NCBI GenBank assembly: GCA_963965975.1
Contig: OZ014424.1
Coordinates: 3,472,001-3,536,000, forward strand
From: Xestospongia bergquistia
Lineage: Eukaryota > Porifera > Demospongiae > Haplosclerida > Petrosiidae
DNA: 64,000 nucleotides
Direction of reading: 5' to 3'
Part shown: positions 49,194 through 63,227 of the stretch, piece by piece
Layout: every line of letters begins with the position of its first letter
Position numbering within the stretch: position 1 is the first letter of the stretch
Translations under genes and position numbers: made by a program
The notes under the pieces: generated by a model
What the model was told of the DNA's origin: nothing
Seen by the model: only the letters and a program-made list of their open reading frames with translations
Databases searched by the model: none

Positions 49194-51546
49194 ATGGCAC
49201 ATGTAACTTTAGGTAAAATACTATATTGCATGGTAAATAAAAAGTCATAAAGATTCTATAGGTTTAGATGTCAAGTCCCAAAAGAAGAGTAGAGTTAGAA
49301 AAAGAAGAAAGAGACGATATAGTAATTGTAGTAATAGTAGCAGTGATAGTGGAGATGAATGGACACCTGATCTAGAGACTTGTGTGATGAAGAAAAAAAA
49401 TGATGTCATAAGAGGTAATAAACTTGTAAATAAAATATGGACACCATTCTTTGTGTTTAGATCACAAACTTACGAGAGTCTTGAAGCAGCAAAAAGCACA
49501 GCAAAAGAAATATTACCAACCTGTAGAGGGGGAGGAGCCTTCATTTGAGAGCCTTGATTGCAGGTTGTCTAATAAATTTTCTGAGTTATTTGGAGATGAT
49601 AATTATGAAGAATATGAAGACTTTAAAGGATTTGATATTGAAGATGTGTAAGTTAGATTATATCAGTATTGCTGATGTTTTTTCTTAATACAGTGGTGAT
49701 GTACCTCAGTGTCCAGTTAGTGAACGATATCCTAAGAGATTAATTCACCAATATGAATACAGAGAAGATGAACTATCTGATGAAGATGAATATCTCTGTA
49801 AGTTTAGTATCAATATGGTTACTTCTACAACTTGTATTACTAGTTTGTGACAACTGTGAGGAATTTCATCATGGTGATTGTCCTGTACATGGACCTTTAT
49901 TAACTCTAGATCTTTCTAGTGGTCATGATGAAGCATCTCTACAATACACTAGTGTATTTGTTCCATCTGAATTAACTGTTAAACCTTCTAAGATAGCCAA
50001 TGCTGGTCTGGGTGTTTTTGCTACACAGTTTATACCTCGTGGAGTTAGGTTTGGTCCTTTTGAAGGAAGGAGAGTGTTAAAAGAAGAGCTCACTGAAGGA
50101 GAAGATACTAGCTACATGTGGGAGGTACTGTAATAAAAATAAAAAAGGATTAATTTTTAAAATTATTTAGGTGAAGCACGTTGGAAAGAGGTCATATTAT
50201 ATTGATGGTCAATCAGATAACCAATGTAACTGGTTACGATTTATTAACTGTGCTCGCAATGAAGATGAACAGAATTTAATAGCTTTTCAGTATCATGGTA
50301 ACATCTATTATCGCTCATTCAAGCATATCTATCCTGGTAATGAACTTTATGTATGGTATGGTGAACAATATGCAAGAGAACTTGGGATTACAGCTAGTTT
50401 TGAAGAAGGTAGGGTAATTCTTTTGGCAGAAATAAAATTTACTATCTATTTTTAGATAATTGTCAACTTTATAATTGCAAAAATTGTGGAAGTAGTTTTG
50501 TTTTGAAAGCCAATTTTGATTTGCATCTTCGACATAATCCTAATTGTCTTCCTGCTAATCCTCAATGTTTTACTTGTCAAAAATGTCAAGAAAACTTTTG
50601 TGAATTGTATCAGTTACAAGACCATATTCGTAAACATGAGCAACTTGATGTAAAAGAAATAAATAAAAAAAGGCTCATTTCCAATGATAAATTGCTATTT
50701 GAGAATGTAGATAATATGTGTGATTATTGTGGAAAGAAATTTTCTTGTCAGTCATCATTGAGGACTCATCTTCGTATACACACTGGTGATAATCCTTACC
50801 AATGTCAGTATTGTGGAAAAGGATTTAGTCATAATGGTAGTCTCCGAAAGCATCTTCCTATACACATGGGTAATAAATCTTACCATTGTCAGTACTGTGG
50901 AAAAAGATGTAGTAATAAGAGTAATCTCTGCAAACATCTTCGTATACACACTGGTGATAAACGTTACCAATGTCAGTACTGTGGAAAAGATTTTTATCAG
51001 AATAATGATCTCCAAAGACATCTTTATACACACACTGGTGATAAACCTTACCAATGTGAGTACTGTGGAAAACGATTTAGTCAGAATGGTAGTCTCCAAA
51101 GACATCATCATATACACACTGGTAATAGACCTTACCAATGTCAGTACTGCAGAAAAGGATTTAGTCAGAATTGTAGTCTCCAAACTCATCTTTGTATACA
51201 CACTGGTGATAAACCTTACCAATGTCAGTACTGTGGCAAAGGATTTATTCAGAATAGTAATCTTAAAAAACATCTTCGTATCCACACTGGTGATAAACCT
51301 TACCAATGTGAGTACTGTGGAAAAAGATTTAGTCAGAATGGTAATCTCCAAACTCATGTTCGTATACACACTGGTGATAGACCTTATCAATGTCAGCACT
51401 GTGAAAAAAGATTTAATCATAGTAGTGATCTCCAAAGACACCTTCGTATACACACTGGTGATAAACCTTACCAATGTCAGTACTGTAGAAAAGAATTTCG
51501 TCATAATGGTAGTCTCCAAAGACATCTTCATATTCACCTAAAATAA
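49194..51546 (+). CDS. PRDM9: PRDM9-like histone methyltransferase: zinc knuckle, PR/SET, 12 C2H2 fingers
   Basis: Seven exons (49194-49212, 49262-49414, 49461-49647, 49694-49797, 49844-50124, 50171-50408, 50456-51546) give 690 residues. A basic/serine-rich N-terminus is followed by an acidic stretch and SDEDEYLFCDNCEEF..CPVHGP, the PRDM7/9 zinc knuckle. The PR/SET domain reads KIANAGLGVFATQFIPRGVR, FGPFEGR, NWLRFINCARNEDEQNLIAF, QYHGNIYYRSFK and LYVWYGEQYARELGI. It matches PRDM9 throughout and keeps the catalytic tyrosines. Two atypical fingers and ten tandem 28-residue C2H2 fingers follow (HTGDKPYQCQYCGK linkers). In PRDM9 this architecture places H3K4/K36 methylation at meiotic hotspots. 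No KRAB domain is seen, and the SSXRD motif is not clear. Fingers differ mainly at DNA-contact positions. The frame is intact. Confidence 0.85.
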
Positions 51547-55499: not shown

Positions 55500-56665
55500 G
55501 AACACTGTCATTGCATCCTTCAGTAACATGCATGTCTCTAAAAATAAATCCCCTTCATCTCTCCTGTCATGAGTAAACTTCACCAACATCTGTTTAAGGG
55601 TTTGATTCCACCTTTCATCTAATCCATTTGCCTATTCAATTTTTACACATAATAGTATATCATAAGAGACTGACTACAATACCTGTGGATGATAGGGTGT
55701 CGTAAAATGTTGCTTTATGTCTAGAAGTTTCATAAGGTCTTTGTCAAGTTGGCATCTAAACTCTCTGCCTTGGTCACTTGTCAACAATTTAGGAAGACCC
55801 ATTCTCATAAAAATCTGTGGCAAATGTGAATTGTATGGATATTGTTCTATAATTTTACTTAGTAATGATGATTACCCTGAATAAAGTTTCATTGACACCA
55901 TGGGCACATTTGCTAGGCAAGGGAATGGCCTCCACCTGTTTTGTAAAATAATCTGACACAGTGAGAATAAAACAATTCCCATTTGTAGATGTTGGAGATA
56001 TTGGGCCAACAAAGTCAATTGCCACATGGTACCATGGAGAATGTACTGGTATAGGATGAAGCTCATTGTTAGTAACAATTGGGTTTTTGTTCATCCTCTG
56101 ACATTCATCACAGGTAGAAACCTACATGTGTTGATATAAGACAACACCAAATTTTAAACTTACTACTTCTTTGACATCATTCCATATACCTTTCCACATA
56201 AATTGTTCCCTGATCCGTCCTACTGTTTTCTTAAATCCCATATGTCCCGATGTTGGATCAATGTGACATGATTTCACAATCTTTAATTGCTCACTTCGAG
56301 ACTGTATGTATTTAACTACCTACAATAGTTCCAACAACCATTGAATTGAAACTTTATTTTACAAACATTTGTCATTTTACCTGCTTCTCTCTTCCAGGTT
56401 TGTAGTACAGCTCTCCATCAACTATGACAAAATTTTCTGCCTTTTTTCTAATTATTCTCTTCCTAGTTGCACTGGCTCCATCTGGATATTTCTTTTCTGA
56501 CACATAAAGAAAAGCTTCATCAATTAGATCGTCTCCCTCGGCCATACTTTCTTTTCCAGCTAAATCTTGACAAGCGTGAATCTCTGAACAGTATTTCATT
56601 TGCCAAAAAAGAGTTATTTTGTGCGGCAAGGGCTCTTTGTTCAGTTTGGAGAGATAGTGACGCAT
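55500..56665 (-). CDS. Transposon copy B integrase (HHCC finger and DDE core)
   Basis: Exons run from about 56665 to 55500. The N-terminus includes DEAFLYVSEKKYPDGA and LYYKPGR. The HHCC finger is H..H in CHIDPTSGH and C..C in STCDECQRMNKNP. The DDE core has the first Asp in WYHVAIDFVGPIS, the second in LLTSDQGREF, and the Glu in ANGLDERWNQTL at the retroviral-type spacing. This is the gypsy-like integrase fold. Unlike copy C the catalytic residues all survive. Downstream the frame continues into a serine/threonine/proline-rich linker toward the protease. Confidence 0.8.
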
Positions 56666-56757
56666 GTGGATACAAAATTGCAGGGTGGGATAAAAAAGAA
56701 CCTAGCAATTTTTGGTCCTTGGACAAAAAATTGCCTAGGATAAAATATTGTATGACA

Positions 56758-58234: not shown

Positions 58235-61200
58235 ATGATTGACATCAGTCAATGGAGAGCTAGTATTGGGTTGTGGTATTGTCATCAGATACCACATGCT
58301 ACTAAAAAGACTCCTTCTACTACTGATACCGCTGGATGGATGTTACTATTGACATCAGAAGATAAGGGTGGTGGTACCTTGATATTCTCTCTAGTTTTAT
58401 TTCTCTTACTTCTCATCATTTTATCAGGAGATGTTGAACTTAATCCTGGACCTAAAACAGGTCAGTAAACATTAACACACTCATATAACTGATATAACTG
58501 ATGTCTCATTTATATTTCAAAAAAGAATTGACATCAAGTAATGCTATAAGACTTCTTTCTAAGAGTGGTTTTGTTGTTAAAGATAATTGGACTGAACTCA
58601 TGAGTCTTCTAGGTGTATCATTGCAGGAAAGGAGAAGACTCAAGACAATGGCCAGCAGTGATCAAGATTACCACTCTGCTTTTGAGGAAGGTTTACAATG
58701 GTGGATTTCAAATGGTATTGCTCGCTCTTGGGAAGAACTTATTTCAGCTGTTGAGAGTTGTGGTGATAAGGATACGGCTATTATACTGAGAAAACGGCTA
58801 GATATCAAAGAAGAAGGTATGTACTATTTATAGTTCATTATATATAATAATTATCAATGTAGTATAATATATTAGTAAAGGACATAATAGACATTGAAGG
58901 TTTACTCTCAAAGTGGCAGAAATGGCTTGATAGTCCTTTCCTTTCTTTTAACAAGGGAAATCAGAAAGACAGACAGAAGAAACAAGTGACCAAGCTAGAA
59001 GGCCTTCCTGTGGTAGCTCTGCAGATCTTTCTAATAATACAGTAAATGCCAATGCTATAGAAAATGATGAAATTCATAAAGTATTGAATAGTGTATTGAC
59101 AAGTCATTTTTCAGACTTAAGTAACCAGTTAAGTAGATGTTTATCACGAGTTTCTGCAGCAATGTATTCCAAAAGATTGATAAGTGAATCAGTCAGAGAT
59201 TCTCCAACTGTTTATAATTTAATTGGTGAATTTGAAAGTGGAATGAATTTAGTGAACGATATTTCAAAGTTACAGGAACATTGTCAACTTTTCTTACAAT
59301 GTCTCTCCAGTGAAGGTGGTCCTACTAAATTAGCTGCTCAAAAGTTATGTCAAGATTGGGTTGAAGAAGCCAAAAAGAAATGTGATATCTCACTAGATCT
59401 TACATGTGATGATCTTATACAACAGGATATAAAACAACAAGGTCAGTACTATAAAATGATCAGCCACTTGCATTTTTGAATAAAGCATAAGTTATGTGTG
59501 CTGCTCTTTCTTTATACCACTATATTATATCATAATGTAAATTATGTTATATGTGATACAATGGATCCTCACATATTTAACTTCTTTATATACTTAATCC
59601 AAACTCAGATTATCTGAATTAATTATTATGTATTCATGAATACATAATAATTAATTGATTAATAAAGTCCACAAACTCCAGAACAATGGTTGAAGCTGAT
59701 CCATACTAGCCAAATTTATTAGTATCATCATATTGTTTTGATTACTACATGATGGAATTAACTGTTCGTGTAGCTAATTGTTAGAATTATGACGATTTTG
59801 TTTAAATAAGCTGCTAGGTCAGTACAGTTACTATGGAATTCATACTACATTTGTTGAACTATATAAACTGTACAATTTAATAGTAATAGTAATCAAAACA
59901 GTATAATGTTGTTAGTAGTTTTCATTGTAGGTATGAATGGAACCTAGTGACTATGAATTAGTCAATTAATAGTGGAATATATTATAGTGTCTCTATGGAA
60001 GACTATAGCTTACAGAATGCTAGAAATATAGGCAAGGAAGCAAGCTAGAAAGAAGCTTCAAGCATTGTCAGTCACACACTTCTTGTTAGGGTTAATACAT
60101 TCATTACTTTCTCTATAAGTCAGTTGGCAGTTAAAGGATAGACAGTTTAGTTTCATTTGTTGCTCTAAAATTTGCATATAACACTATATTAACAAATACA
60201 GGACCATGTGTGCCAGGCAGTAATAATTAAATCTTACTTGCACATAACTTAGGTGATAAAATAGACAGCATCATGTGTCAGTCCACTTTCAGAATTTCTT
60301 TAATAATTATTTCTAGTAATATTGTACTTTATCAGGTTAAGAATTGGATTATGAAAGGTGATGTCATCTATTGCAATGATTAAAATTTGTTTGTCATAAT
60401 AAATTTACTTATCTGTATAGAATAGAAACATAATGGCAGAAAGTTTAGTCAAACTACTGCTTGCTGTAACCATCGAAACCATAGCCTTAGAAAAGCTGCT
60501 ATAAACTTACATACACACCATCTCTAGGAGGTGTATGAAACTATTTATTGACCTGACATAGAGCAATCTGATTGGTCAATTTAAGCATTGCACATACAAG
60601 ACACAGTACTGATTAGTGATTACTGAATGCTTGATACTTTGTTTAGAAGAAAAACAATTAATGCTTGATACTTTGTTTAGAATGTTTAGAAGAAAAACAA
60701 TTTGGCTGAAATAATCAGTTTAGTTAGTGTTCACAGTTTTCAACTTTAAAAACTGTGAAAGAGCTTGATAAAAGAAGTAGGTGATTAAGTAGGCCTATAA
60801 GATAATTTTAACAGTTATTTGAAAGCATCATATTTTTGAGTCAGTAGAGTGAACGAGGCAACCATTTTTAGACCATCCCCTCATTTTAAACACTACAATA
60901 CTTAATTATTTATCATTTATGTAGGTTCTCAAAAAGTTGTAAAAATTCTAACATTGCAAAGTAAAGAGGAAGAAAAACAAGTTAATACTACTTTAAAAAA
61001 CTTAGACAAAACCTTCAGTGTATTAATGGTAGCTGTCCGATCAGCTCTTGATCATAAACTACAACATCAACAACTAGTACTAGTGGACTTTATTAGATGG
61101 ATTGAACATAGAATGAAATGGGTTGGGGAACTAAAAGACATTGATGATTTAGATGAGGTTTTCAAGAAACTACATCCATATTTTGACTTCATAGACTGTG

Positions 61201-63227
61201 AGTTAATTGTGGATATGAGTGAAAAGTTTCTCAATGATAAATGCTTTGGAGAAGACAAGAAAAACCTTGTCTGTGAACTTAAAGAACATATGCTTAAAGC
61301 TGAGACCCTTCGTTGTTCGTCTACAGTAAAAGAACTCAAAACTAAACTAAGACAGATCTATTCTCCACAACTAGTAAATTTATCAAACATGCCTACAATT
61401 CAAATCATGTTACACAATCCATGGAATGAAGCTACTATTGGAGGACTTTACCTACTAATAGGACATTTACTACCTCACAAATCAAAGCAGTCAATCCTTA
61501 AGTATATAGAGATTGATACAGGCTCAGTTATCATCAAATACATTGTCCATAAGTCAAAAGCTGATAGCCTCATAGCTCACGCTCAAGGCAAGTTACAGTT
61601 TATGCATCTCATTGGTATCTTTGGTCTAACAATTAATGGTGAACCCATCCTGGAAGAAGATGAGAATATGAACTTCACTTTTGAGTCAGCTCTTCTAGAA
61701 GCAGCGAAAACTGGTCATAATGAAGCTGCTCAATTTCTCCTCAAATTTATAGAAGATGTAAACCATTATAACAATGAAGGTAGAACAGCACTTATGTTAG
61801 CTAGTGTATGTGGACATGAACAAGTTGTACAAACACTAATATCAGCTGGAGCTAATCCTAACATTCAAGATAACACTGGGTACACTGCATTGATGCTAGC
61901 ATGTGATGCAAACTCCTACACTATAGTCAGCTACCTACTTCAAGCTGGAACTAATCCTGATATACAAACAAATAATGGAGATACATCTATCATAATAGCA
62001 TGTCGAAATAATCACTCTGATATTGTGAAGTTATTACTTCAATTTAATGCTGATCCACTTATTACTACAAGAAATGAAGACACAGCTCTCACTGTATCTG
62101 TACACATAAATTCCATTGAGATAGTGGAAATGTTACTTGATAAACAGCCAAAGAGCCAGAAATCAAGTTTAGTCGTAACAGCTCTCATTACAGCATGTCG
62201 ATACGGACACTCTCAACTTATTATCACATTACTAATGTACTTACTTGACTATTTTCCAGATGAAGAATTCCAACTTTTTGCATTAAGTGCTGAAGGAGAT
62301 CACATCTCTACAACAAGTCATATTTCTGATTGTACTGTTGATGTCAACTGTACACTAGTCAATGATATCACTCCTCTTATGATAGCCTCATCTTGTGGAC
62401 ATGTAGAGACAGCAGAAGTCCTCTTAAAGGGTGGAGCTAATGTTAACAGTACAGACAGTGATGGATACACTCCACTAATATATGCTATAACAGGACACAA
62501 GTCACTTCAAGTTATAGAACAGCTACTTAAAGCTGGTGCTCAACCTAATGTCTTTATTAATGACCAGAATATTGTTGAAAAAGTAAGAAAAGAAGGAAGA
62601 GAAGATATGAGTAGATTATTAGAACAATTTAATGTTTTCAATATAACGGAAGAGGAGGAACAGTTACAGCTCTTTAGTGAAAATTTGACCATCCCAATTA
62701 TTGAAGCTGCAAAAACAGGCAATACTGAGGTTGTTAAATTACTACTTAAAGAGAATGTAGATGTTAATGTTCAGGATGAAGAAGGAGTGACTGCCTTAAT
62801 GATAGCTAGTGAAAATGGCCATACACAGGTTGTTGATCTACTGCTCAAAGCGAATGTAGATGTTAATGTTCAAGATGAAGAAGGAGTGACTGCCTTAATG
62901 ATAGCTAGTGAAAATGGCCATACACAAGTTGTTGAAGTACTACTCAAAGAGAATGCTGATGTTAATATTCAGAACAAAGAAGGAGTGACTGCTCTAATGC
63001 TAGCTAGTGTGAATGGACATCTTGAAGTAGTTAAATGCTTACTAAAATCAAAAGCAGATCCCCATATAGTAGCATATATTGAAGGGATTGAAATGACAGC
63101 ACTTCTAATAGCAGCTTTTACTAGTAACAAAGACATTGTTAAAATGCTAATAGACAAAAGTGAACCCACTACTGATGAGATTGAAAAAGCAGTAGTAACA
63201 TCATGTTATGACGGTCGTCCTCTTTAA
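58235..63227 (+). CDS. 2A-leader / Death-domain / ankyrin-repeat protein
   Basis: Four exons (58235-58460, 58526-58816, 58956-59441, 60925-63227) give about 1101 residues. Residues 1-73 contain a strong hydrophobic stretch (LIFSLVLFLLLLIILS) immediately followed by the 2A motif GDVELNPGP. A Death-type domain follows (NWTELMSLLGVSLQERRRL, then WWISNGIARSWEELISAVES), then an acidic serine-rich linker. Next comes a helical region (residues about 180-600, not recognised, including WIEHRMKWVGEL and MLHNPWNEATIGGLYLLIGH), then about 12 ankyrin repeats. In related animal immune-type proteins, a 2A-terminated leader is either cut off co-translationally by ribosome skipping or kept as a signal sequence. 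The last intron (59442-60924) is long and holds a small direct duplication at 60626-60702. The role is probably signalling in innate-immune or cell-death pathways (inference). Confidence 0.85.
58427..58453 (+). other. 2A-like ribosome-skipping sequence
   Basis: Encodes GDVELNPGP, matching the D(V/I)ExNPG-P consensus. Skipping would occur between the last Gly and Pro, leaving a 72-residue leader and a Death-ankyrin product starting with Pro. It is in frame at residues 65-73, directly after the hydrophobic helix. Confidence 0.92.
60626..60702. repeat. Short imperfect direct duplication in intron
   Basis: ATGCTTGATACTTTGTTTAG followed by AAGAAAAACAAT occurs twice (from 60626 and 60661), the second with an 8-base insertion. 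Confidence 0.85.
62754..63050 (+). repeat. Three 99-base ankyrin-repeat duplications
   Basis: Units 62754-62852, 62853-62951 and 62952-63050 each encode one 33-residue ankyrin repeat (VNVQDEEGVTALMIASENGH). The first two are almost identical in DNA; the third has diverged. This shows recent tandem growth of the array. Confidence 0.93.

Follow-up and report, generated by a model that had tools for sequence, protein, structure and literature searches.

The DNA analysed here, called the window, is a 64-kb stretch of the genome of the sponge Xestospongia bergquistia (C14:3472001-3536000). It carries at 58235-63227, on the forward strand, a gene whose four exons join into a single open frame of 1101 amino acids. 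The gene appears to be of the innate-immunity type, and its first exon would code for a 2A (StopGo) leader. The order in the protein is a leader with a hydrophobic helix, the octapeptide DVELNPGP, a Death domain, a CARD-like third exon, a region unmatched in Pfam, and ankyrin repeats. An in-frame stop lies directly 5' of the ATG, and all three introns are GT-AG and of phase 1. The features are as follows, where pN/pS is the ratio of nonsynonymous to synonymous differences.

58235-58460, + strand: exon 1, predicted 2A leader, amino acids 1-75 (MIDISQWRASIGLWYCHQ...NPGPKT); open frame from ATG, conservation in an alignment of 35 leaders, pN/pS below 1 in all segments and highest in the linker
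58373-58423, + strand: hydrophobic helix, leader amino acids 47-63; mean Kyte-Doolittle hydropathy 3.05
58430-58453, + strand: 2A octapeptide DVELNPG/P by pattern match, amino acids 66-73; predicted skip between Gly72 and Pro73
58461-58525, + strand: intron 1, GT-AG, phase 1; conserved less than the exons, gap runs not in threes
58526-58816, + strand: exon 2, Death domain; Pfam Death 28.2 bits, cut-off 22.6
58956-59441, + strand: exon 3, helical domain, CARD-like by predicted fold
60925-61688, + strand: first part of exon 4, a helical region and a low-confidence, possibly ferredoxin-like part; no Pfam family over the cut-off
61689-63227 (boundary approximate), + strand: second part of exon 4, ankyrin repeats up to the stop codon; Pfam Ank_2 and Ank

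Scanning the window with the DNA pattern for D[VIM]ExNPGP gives a single site, and 100 dinucleotide shuffles contain none, so the octapeptide is not there by chance. Coding sequence flanks it in frame on either side, and the LIILSG upstream of it is leucine-rich and ends in (A/S/C)G, the context of 2A/StopGo elements. By sequence and context the leader is such an element, and skipping is predicted for it. The first-pass annotation of this DNA had claimed that a Death/ankyrin protein is preceded in frame by a 2A-like, signal-like leader; the 1101-residue frame, with the helix at amino acids 47-63 and the octapeptide at 66-73, bears this out. The link it drew to 2A signal sequences on NOD-like receptor (NLR) proteins also has its counterpart, in the sea urchin (PMC4981915).

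In that case, a sea-urchin NLR leader of 26 amino acids was estimated, qualitatively, to skip about 80% of the time in vitro, and the reporter was cytosolic in the wild type and in the Golgi once skipping was blocked (PMC4981915). The window leader shares with this SpNLR2A type its N-terminal place before a Death-type immune protein, a leucine-rich stretch that is signal-like on the basis of hydropathy, and the D(V/I)ExNPGP end. It differs in that the sea-urchin leaders have about 26 residues and sit on NACHT proteins, while here 72 residues lead to the Gly, they form an exon of their own with a conserved MIDxxQWRxxIGLW motif, and the host is free of NACHT. By analogy the leader may work like the SpNLR2A signal sequences, yet it is not one of them by length and host. 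A second likeness is to the leucine-rich class of viral StopGo/2A elements, which have the same octapeptide and a leucine-rich upstream part ending in SG. LIILSG resembles the LLLLSG-like upstream class of PMC12846837, in which motif 6 of the leucine-rich group was among four motifs active in vitro. The viral elements split a viral polyprotein, whereas in the window a cellular gene would lose a membrane leader from one protein.

What kind of protein follows the leader? The Pfam Death family matches the whole protein at E = 9.3e-5 and 22.9 bits, just over the cut-off of 22.6, and exon 2 alone at E = 2.1e-6 and 28.2 bits, which places it among Death-domain proteins. The repeats match Ank_2 in 8 stretches (E = 1.1e-109) and Ank in 10, and when the PDB was searched by sequence with query A2, 635 sequences matched, the 60 listed among them aligning to the ankyrin part. 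Exon 3 looks CARD-like, in that the best matches of its predicted fold are CARDs, with nothing below E = 1 in the Foldseek search. The first-pass annotation had further supposed that a NACHT-like fold might be hidden between the Death and ankyrin domains. No evidence for this came to light: the window protein has no Walker A motif or P-loop (G-x4-GK) and no Pfam NTPase or NACHT match over the cut-off, the Foldseek search with the model of the exon-4 region (predicted local distance difference test score, pLDDT, 70.7) gave no match at E <= 0.001, and exon 3 looks CARD-like. A NACHT-like fold in exon 4 is thus not supported, as far as a low-confidence model can tell, and judged from its residues the window protein is not an NLR.

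Is the first exon really part of the gene? One could suppose that it is unused or enters some transcripts only, and that the two forms arise by splicing or from a second promoter instead of by skipping. The window's own predicted protein (P0001, 757 amino acids, 100% identical) is without the leader, and a splice-acceptor-like TTTCTAG directly precedes the ATG, leaving room for another exon 5' of it. However, the block of leader, intron 1 and Death exon is kept together at 39 or more other loci, with 77-88% DNA identity and some copies partial (among the best 40 of 151 candidates, the window included), and the 2A motif lies within the first 220 amino acids in 23 of 26 UniProt proteins of Amphimedon queenslandica that were found by similarity. 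We regard this explanation as very improbable. Among nine aligned cassettes, conservation is 66-70% in intron 1 against 80-87% in the exons. When the window cassette is compared with the eight copies, every gap in exons 1 and 2 spans 3, 6 or 9 columns; the gaps in intron 1 include some of 2 and 4. These paralogues support the joining of exon 1 to exon 2 (58460/58526), and the use of exon 1 itself is predicted.

Is the leader peculiar to this gene? The genome (146.5 Mb in 21 contigs) was searched, and 161 sites of the form D[V/I/M]ExNPGP were found, with none for the reversed pattern as control. Neighbourhood counts use 160 located sites; the 161st, C10:6239554, reads DVEVNPGP and has a leader match. 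In a protein search with one leader as query, in which the best 150 of 191 candidates were scored, matches cover 134 of the 160 located sites and the 161st, and reach down to about 40-50% identity with the query. The conserved unit is a leader of 62-78 amino acids with the N-terminal MIDxxQWRxxIGLW motif. If intact means full length, free of stops, starting at query position 3 or before and ending at 70 or beyond, 129 matches are intact, and the octapeptide is exact in 126 of them (125 at listed sites and the 161st), a count less biased than pN/pS, though the search query contained the motif. Another 21 matches are partial or hold stops, 9 of them with the motif. Working from the letters alone, the first-pass annotation missed that more than a hundred such leaders exist and that they have a conserved motif. 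The 26 located sites without a leader match include retrotransposon-like copies and one repeated element. L009/L010 and C4 8.60-8.91 Mb show repeated DIELNPGP sites in near-identical DNA, at least 11 of them, and the leader in L009/L010 is MNQAIVLFLFPYLLSNDIELNPGP, outside the MIDxxQWR family. At L011 a divergent 2A leader, MIDIGVWRARIGLF, stands upstream of a frame that we take to be one of TPR repeats.

Is the family under selection? Thirty-five leaders were compared, after leaving out identical peptides and 13 rows without a recognised start, some of which were cut by the end of the locus. Taking all pairs together, the 2A segment has a pN/pS of 0.12, a value biased by the picking of leaders through that motif; residues 1-16 have 0.30, which the picking also biases weakly, the helix 0.41 and the linker 0.85. 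For the 136 closer pairs the values are 0.09, 0.33, 0.27 and 0.96, respectively. The constraint on residues 1-16 would seem to be accounted for neither by skipping nor by membrane targeting alone.

There are two other explanations of the leader. It might be an ordinary membrane anchor whose 2A no longer skips, which would make the protein a membrane-bound Death/ankyrin receptor. In favour of this, the helix is strongly hydrophobic (mean hydropathy 3.05), and PMC12909245 describes sponge NLRs with transmembrane domains, which it interprets as putative membrane-bound receptors. However, a motif without function is expected to decay, and the octapeptide is exact in 126 of 129 intact leaders although identity to the query falls to about 40-50% among the matches. 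An anchor of this kind seems quite improbable.

The leader might also have been captured from a non-LTR retrotransposon, its spread then reflecting the history of a mobile element and not a common function. The copies L014-L016 combine a leucine-rich stretch, which in L016 ends early at a stop, with DVESNPGP or DIESNPGP and a cysteine-rich frame, and L020 has a leucine-rich stretch, DVEINPGP and a cysteine-rich frame; all four presumably represent the start of a non-LTR retrotransposon protein. However, no MI[DNG] leader start is recognised in any of the four, and the leader family shows purifying constraint and goes together with Death/NACHT genes. Capture would in any case account for the origin of the leader and not for its present use, and we hold it to be unlikely as an explanation of the family.

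What, then, are the leaders joined to? A neighbour was counted if it lay no more than 10 kb downstream, on the strand of the 2A site and ahead of the next such site. The lists of NACHT matches and of exon-4-region matches (the latter the best 150 of 194 candidates in the genome) give lower bounds, since only the best candidates were scored. At least 48 of the 160 sites have NACHT and at least 33 have the exon-4 region; among the matches scored, none has both and 79 have neither. On the same strand, a NACHT match lies within 4 kb downstream at 47 or more of the 160 sites and within 4 kb upstream at 9; at 1 site there is one in the mirror position on the other strand. The last two counts disregard the next-site limit. 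Counting from the NACHT matches instead, 47 of 95 are preceded within 4 kb by a 2A site, and 29 of the other 48 are on contig C2.

Ten of the 39 cassette loci are on C10, and in 8 of these 10 NACHT follows just downstream, 2 of the 8 having an internal stop (by eye). At L004, L005 and L017 the leader, Death and exon 3 come in the same order as in the window, with 53-76% protein identity (L005 is cut by the end of the locus). The cassette thus stands both before NACHT genes and in Death/exon-3 paralogues, so one 5' cassette serves at least two protein bodies. In a tree of 12 cassettes, the four genes with Death and the exon-4 region cluster with support 0.99 on both exons; thus recent exchange with the C10 NACHT genes need not be invoked. 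The window gene resembles the sponge NLR (NACHT) genes in the leader-Death cassette found at several of their loci, and its body differs from theirs in having ankyrins and a CARD-like domain and no P-loop. On C8 (6.32-6.40 Mb, L031-L037), leaders of the same family precede Death-like, ZU5-like and exon-3-like frames, the Death match at 20.0 bits (cut-off 22.6) and the ZU5 match at 18.8 bits (cut-off 21) both being sub-threshold.

Comparable proteins exist in A. queenslandica. Among the 26 UniProt-labelled proteins of this species that were met, 25 have the 2A motif [DG][VIM]ExNPGP, and 18 have a start of the form MI[DN]..QWR..IG; since they were found by similarity to the window protein and leader, these fractions cannot be extended to the proteome as a whole. 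With the leader alone as query, 29 of 218 candidate proteins had E up to 1, and all the named ones are from A. queenslandica. The UniProt protein that scores best, P0002, is 52% identical over 43% of the query part. Death/ankyrin proteins such as P0102 and P0089 have, like the window protein, the MIDVSQWRASIGLW motif, 2A, an exon-4-like region and ankyrins, and P0089 has an exon-3-like region as well. Their leaders are unlike that of the window in often having about 130 amino acids and more than one hydrophobic stretch. When P0102 was searched against the present genome, the best 47 of 1068 candidates included a best-scoring match of 49% identity and ankyrin pieces of up to 61%, and none to its leader.

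How might the leader work? With a probability that we put at about 0.72, skipping would yield mainly a cytosolic Death/CARD-like/ankyrin protein and a membrane peptide of 72 amino acids, together with a minor membrane-linked form. The ribosome would make 72 residues ending in the leucine-rich helix and GDVELNPG. In most passes the Gly72-Pro73 bond would not be formed, the leader would be released, and translation would continue. The products would be a soluble cytosolic protein starting at Pro73, with the Death, CARD-like and ankyrin parts, and the 72-residue peptide with its one membrane helix. Where the bond is formed, the helix would stay attached and target the chain to the membrane of the endoplasmic reticulum, giving a membrane-linked or secreted form. 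About nine residues separate the end of the helix from the predicted new C-terminus of the leader, and given the general length of the exit tunnel the helix would still be inside it at Gly72; the choice between skip and bond would therefore precede recognition of the helix by the targeting machinery. In the 35 leaders, the 15 residues that precede the helix carry a median net charge of -2, with a range of -4 to +2. A membrane-anchored form is probably at least as likely as a secreted one, and for a Death/ankyrin protein an anchor facing the cytosol would make more sense than secretion. The leader and Death exons are a cassette common to Death/CARD-like/ankyrin genes and NACHT genes. A more tentative idea, which we would sooner doubt than accept, is that the released leader is itself a conserved product, tail-anchored-like, with MIDxxQWRxxIGLW in the cytosol, and made once for each Death, NACHT or ankyrin protein from the common cassette. 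On this idea the putative membrane-bound NLRs of sponges would largely be cytosolic receptors accompanied by a separate membrane peptide.

Several points weigh against the skipping mechanism or the gene structure, among them the part that the motif itself played in picking leaders for the 2A-segment pN/pS and in the query behind the count of 126 in 129. The helix is preceded by about 46 residues, unlike a classical signal peptide. The Death match is weak enough for the window exon to be absent from a genome-wide Death search (best 150 of 983 candidates). One of the eight aligned copies, L041, has in-frame stops within exon 2. Three intact leaders are off-motif: two read GVELNPGP, with G after SG where the viral leucine-rich motifs of PMC12846837 have D, and the otherwise intact L052 (C14:894030-894310) reads DVELKPGP, where skipping should be lost. 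Finally, at 55 of the 134 sites with a leader match, both NACHT and the exon-4 region are missing from the distance searched.

Is the device new? Its kind is known; what appears new is how large the family is, the greater length of the leader and its own conserved motif, the shared exon cassette and the ankyrin hosts. Within the literature searched, no report of 2A leaders in sponges was found, though Rao 2025, a survey of cellular proteomes according to PMC12846837, may list sponge sequences. PMC12846837 describes StopGo in cellular genes as rare, and PMC5009743 mentions StopGo with a secretion signal, the passages on it making no mention of sponges. In PMC5890393 the one "2A-like" passage is a gene name. 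The words ribosome, skipping and signal peptide are absent from the main text of PMC12909245, which credits the first report in A. queenslandica to its reference 25, presumably Yuen 2014. With 126 intact leaders holding the exact octapeptide in one sponge genome, many of them ahead of immune-type genes, StopGo would become a regular cellular device in sponges and echinoderms. Skipping may be widespread in this sponge and decide whether immune-type proteins are free or attached to the membrane. The transmembrane parts of sponge NLRs could then be read in another way, as a helix shed during translation.

Rfam gave no match anywhere in the 64-kb window. Elsewhere in it, a tandem array at 50767-51537, with a unit of 84 bases in 9.2 copies, reads like what we assume to be C2H2 zinc fingers. 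On the reverse strand, the short frames at 55855-56701 are presumably the remains of a Ty3/gypsy-type integrase.

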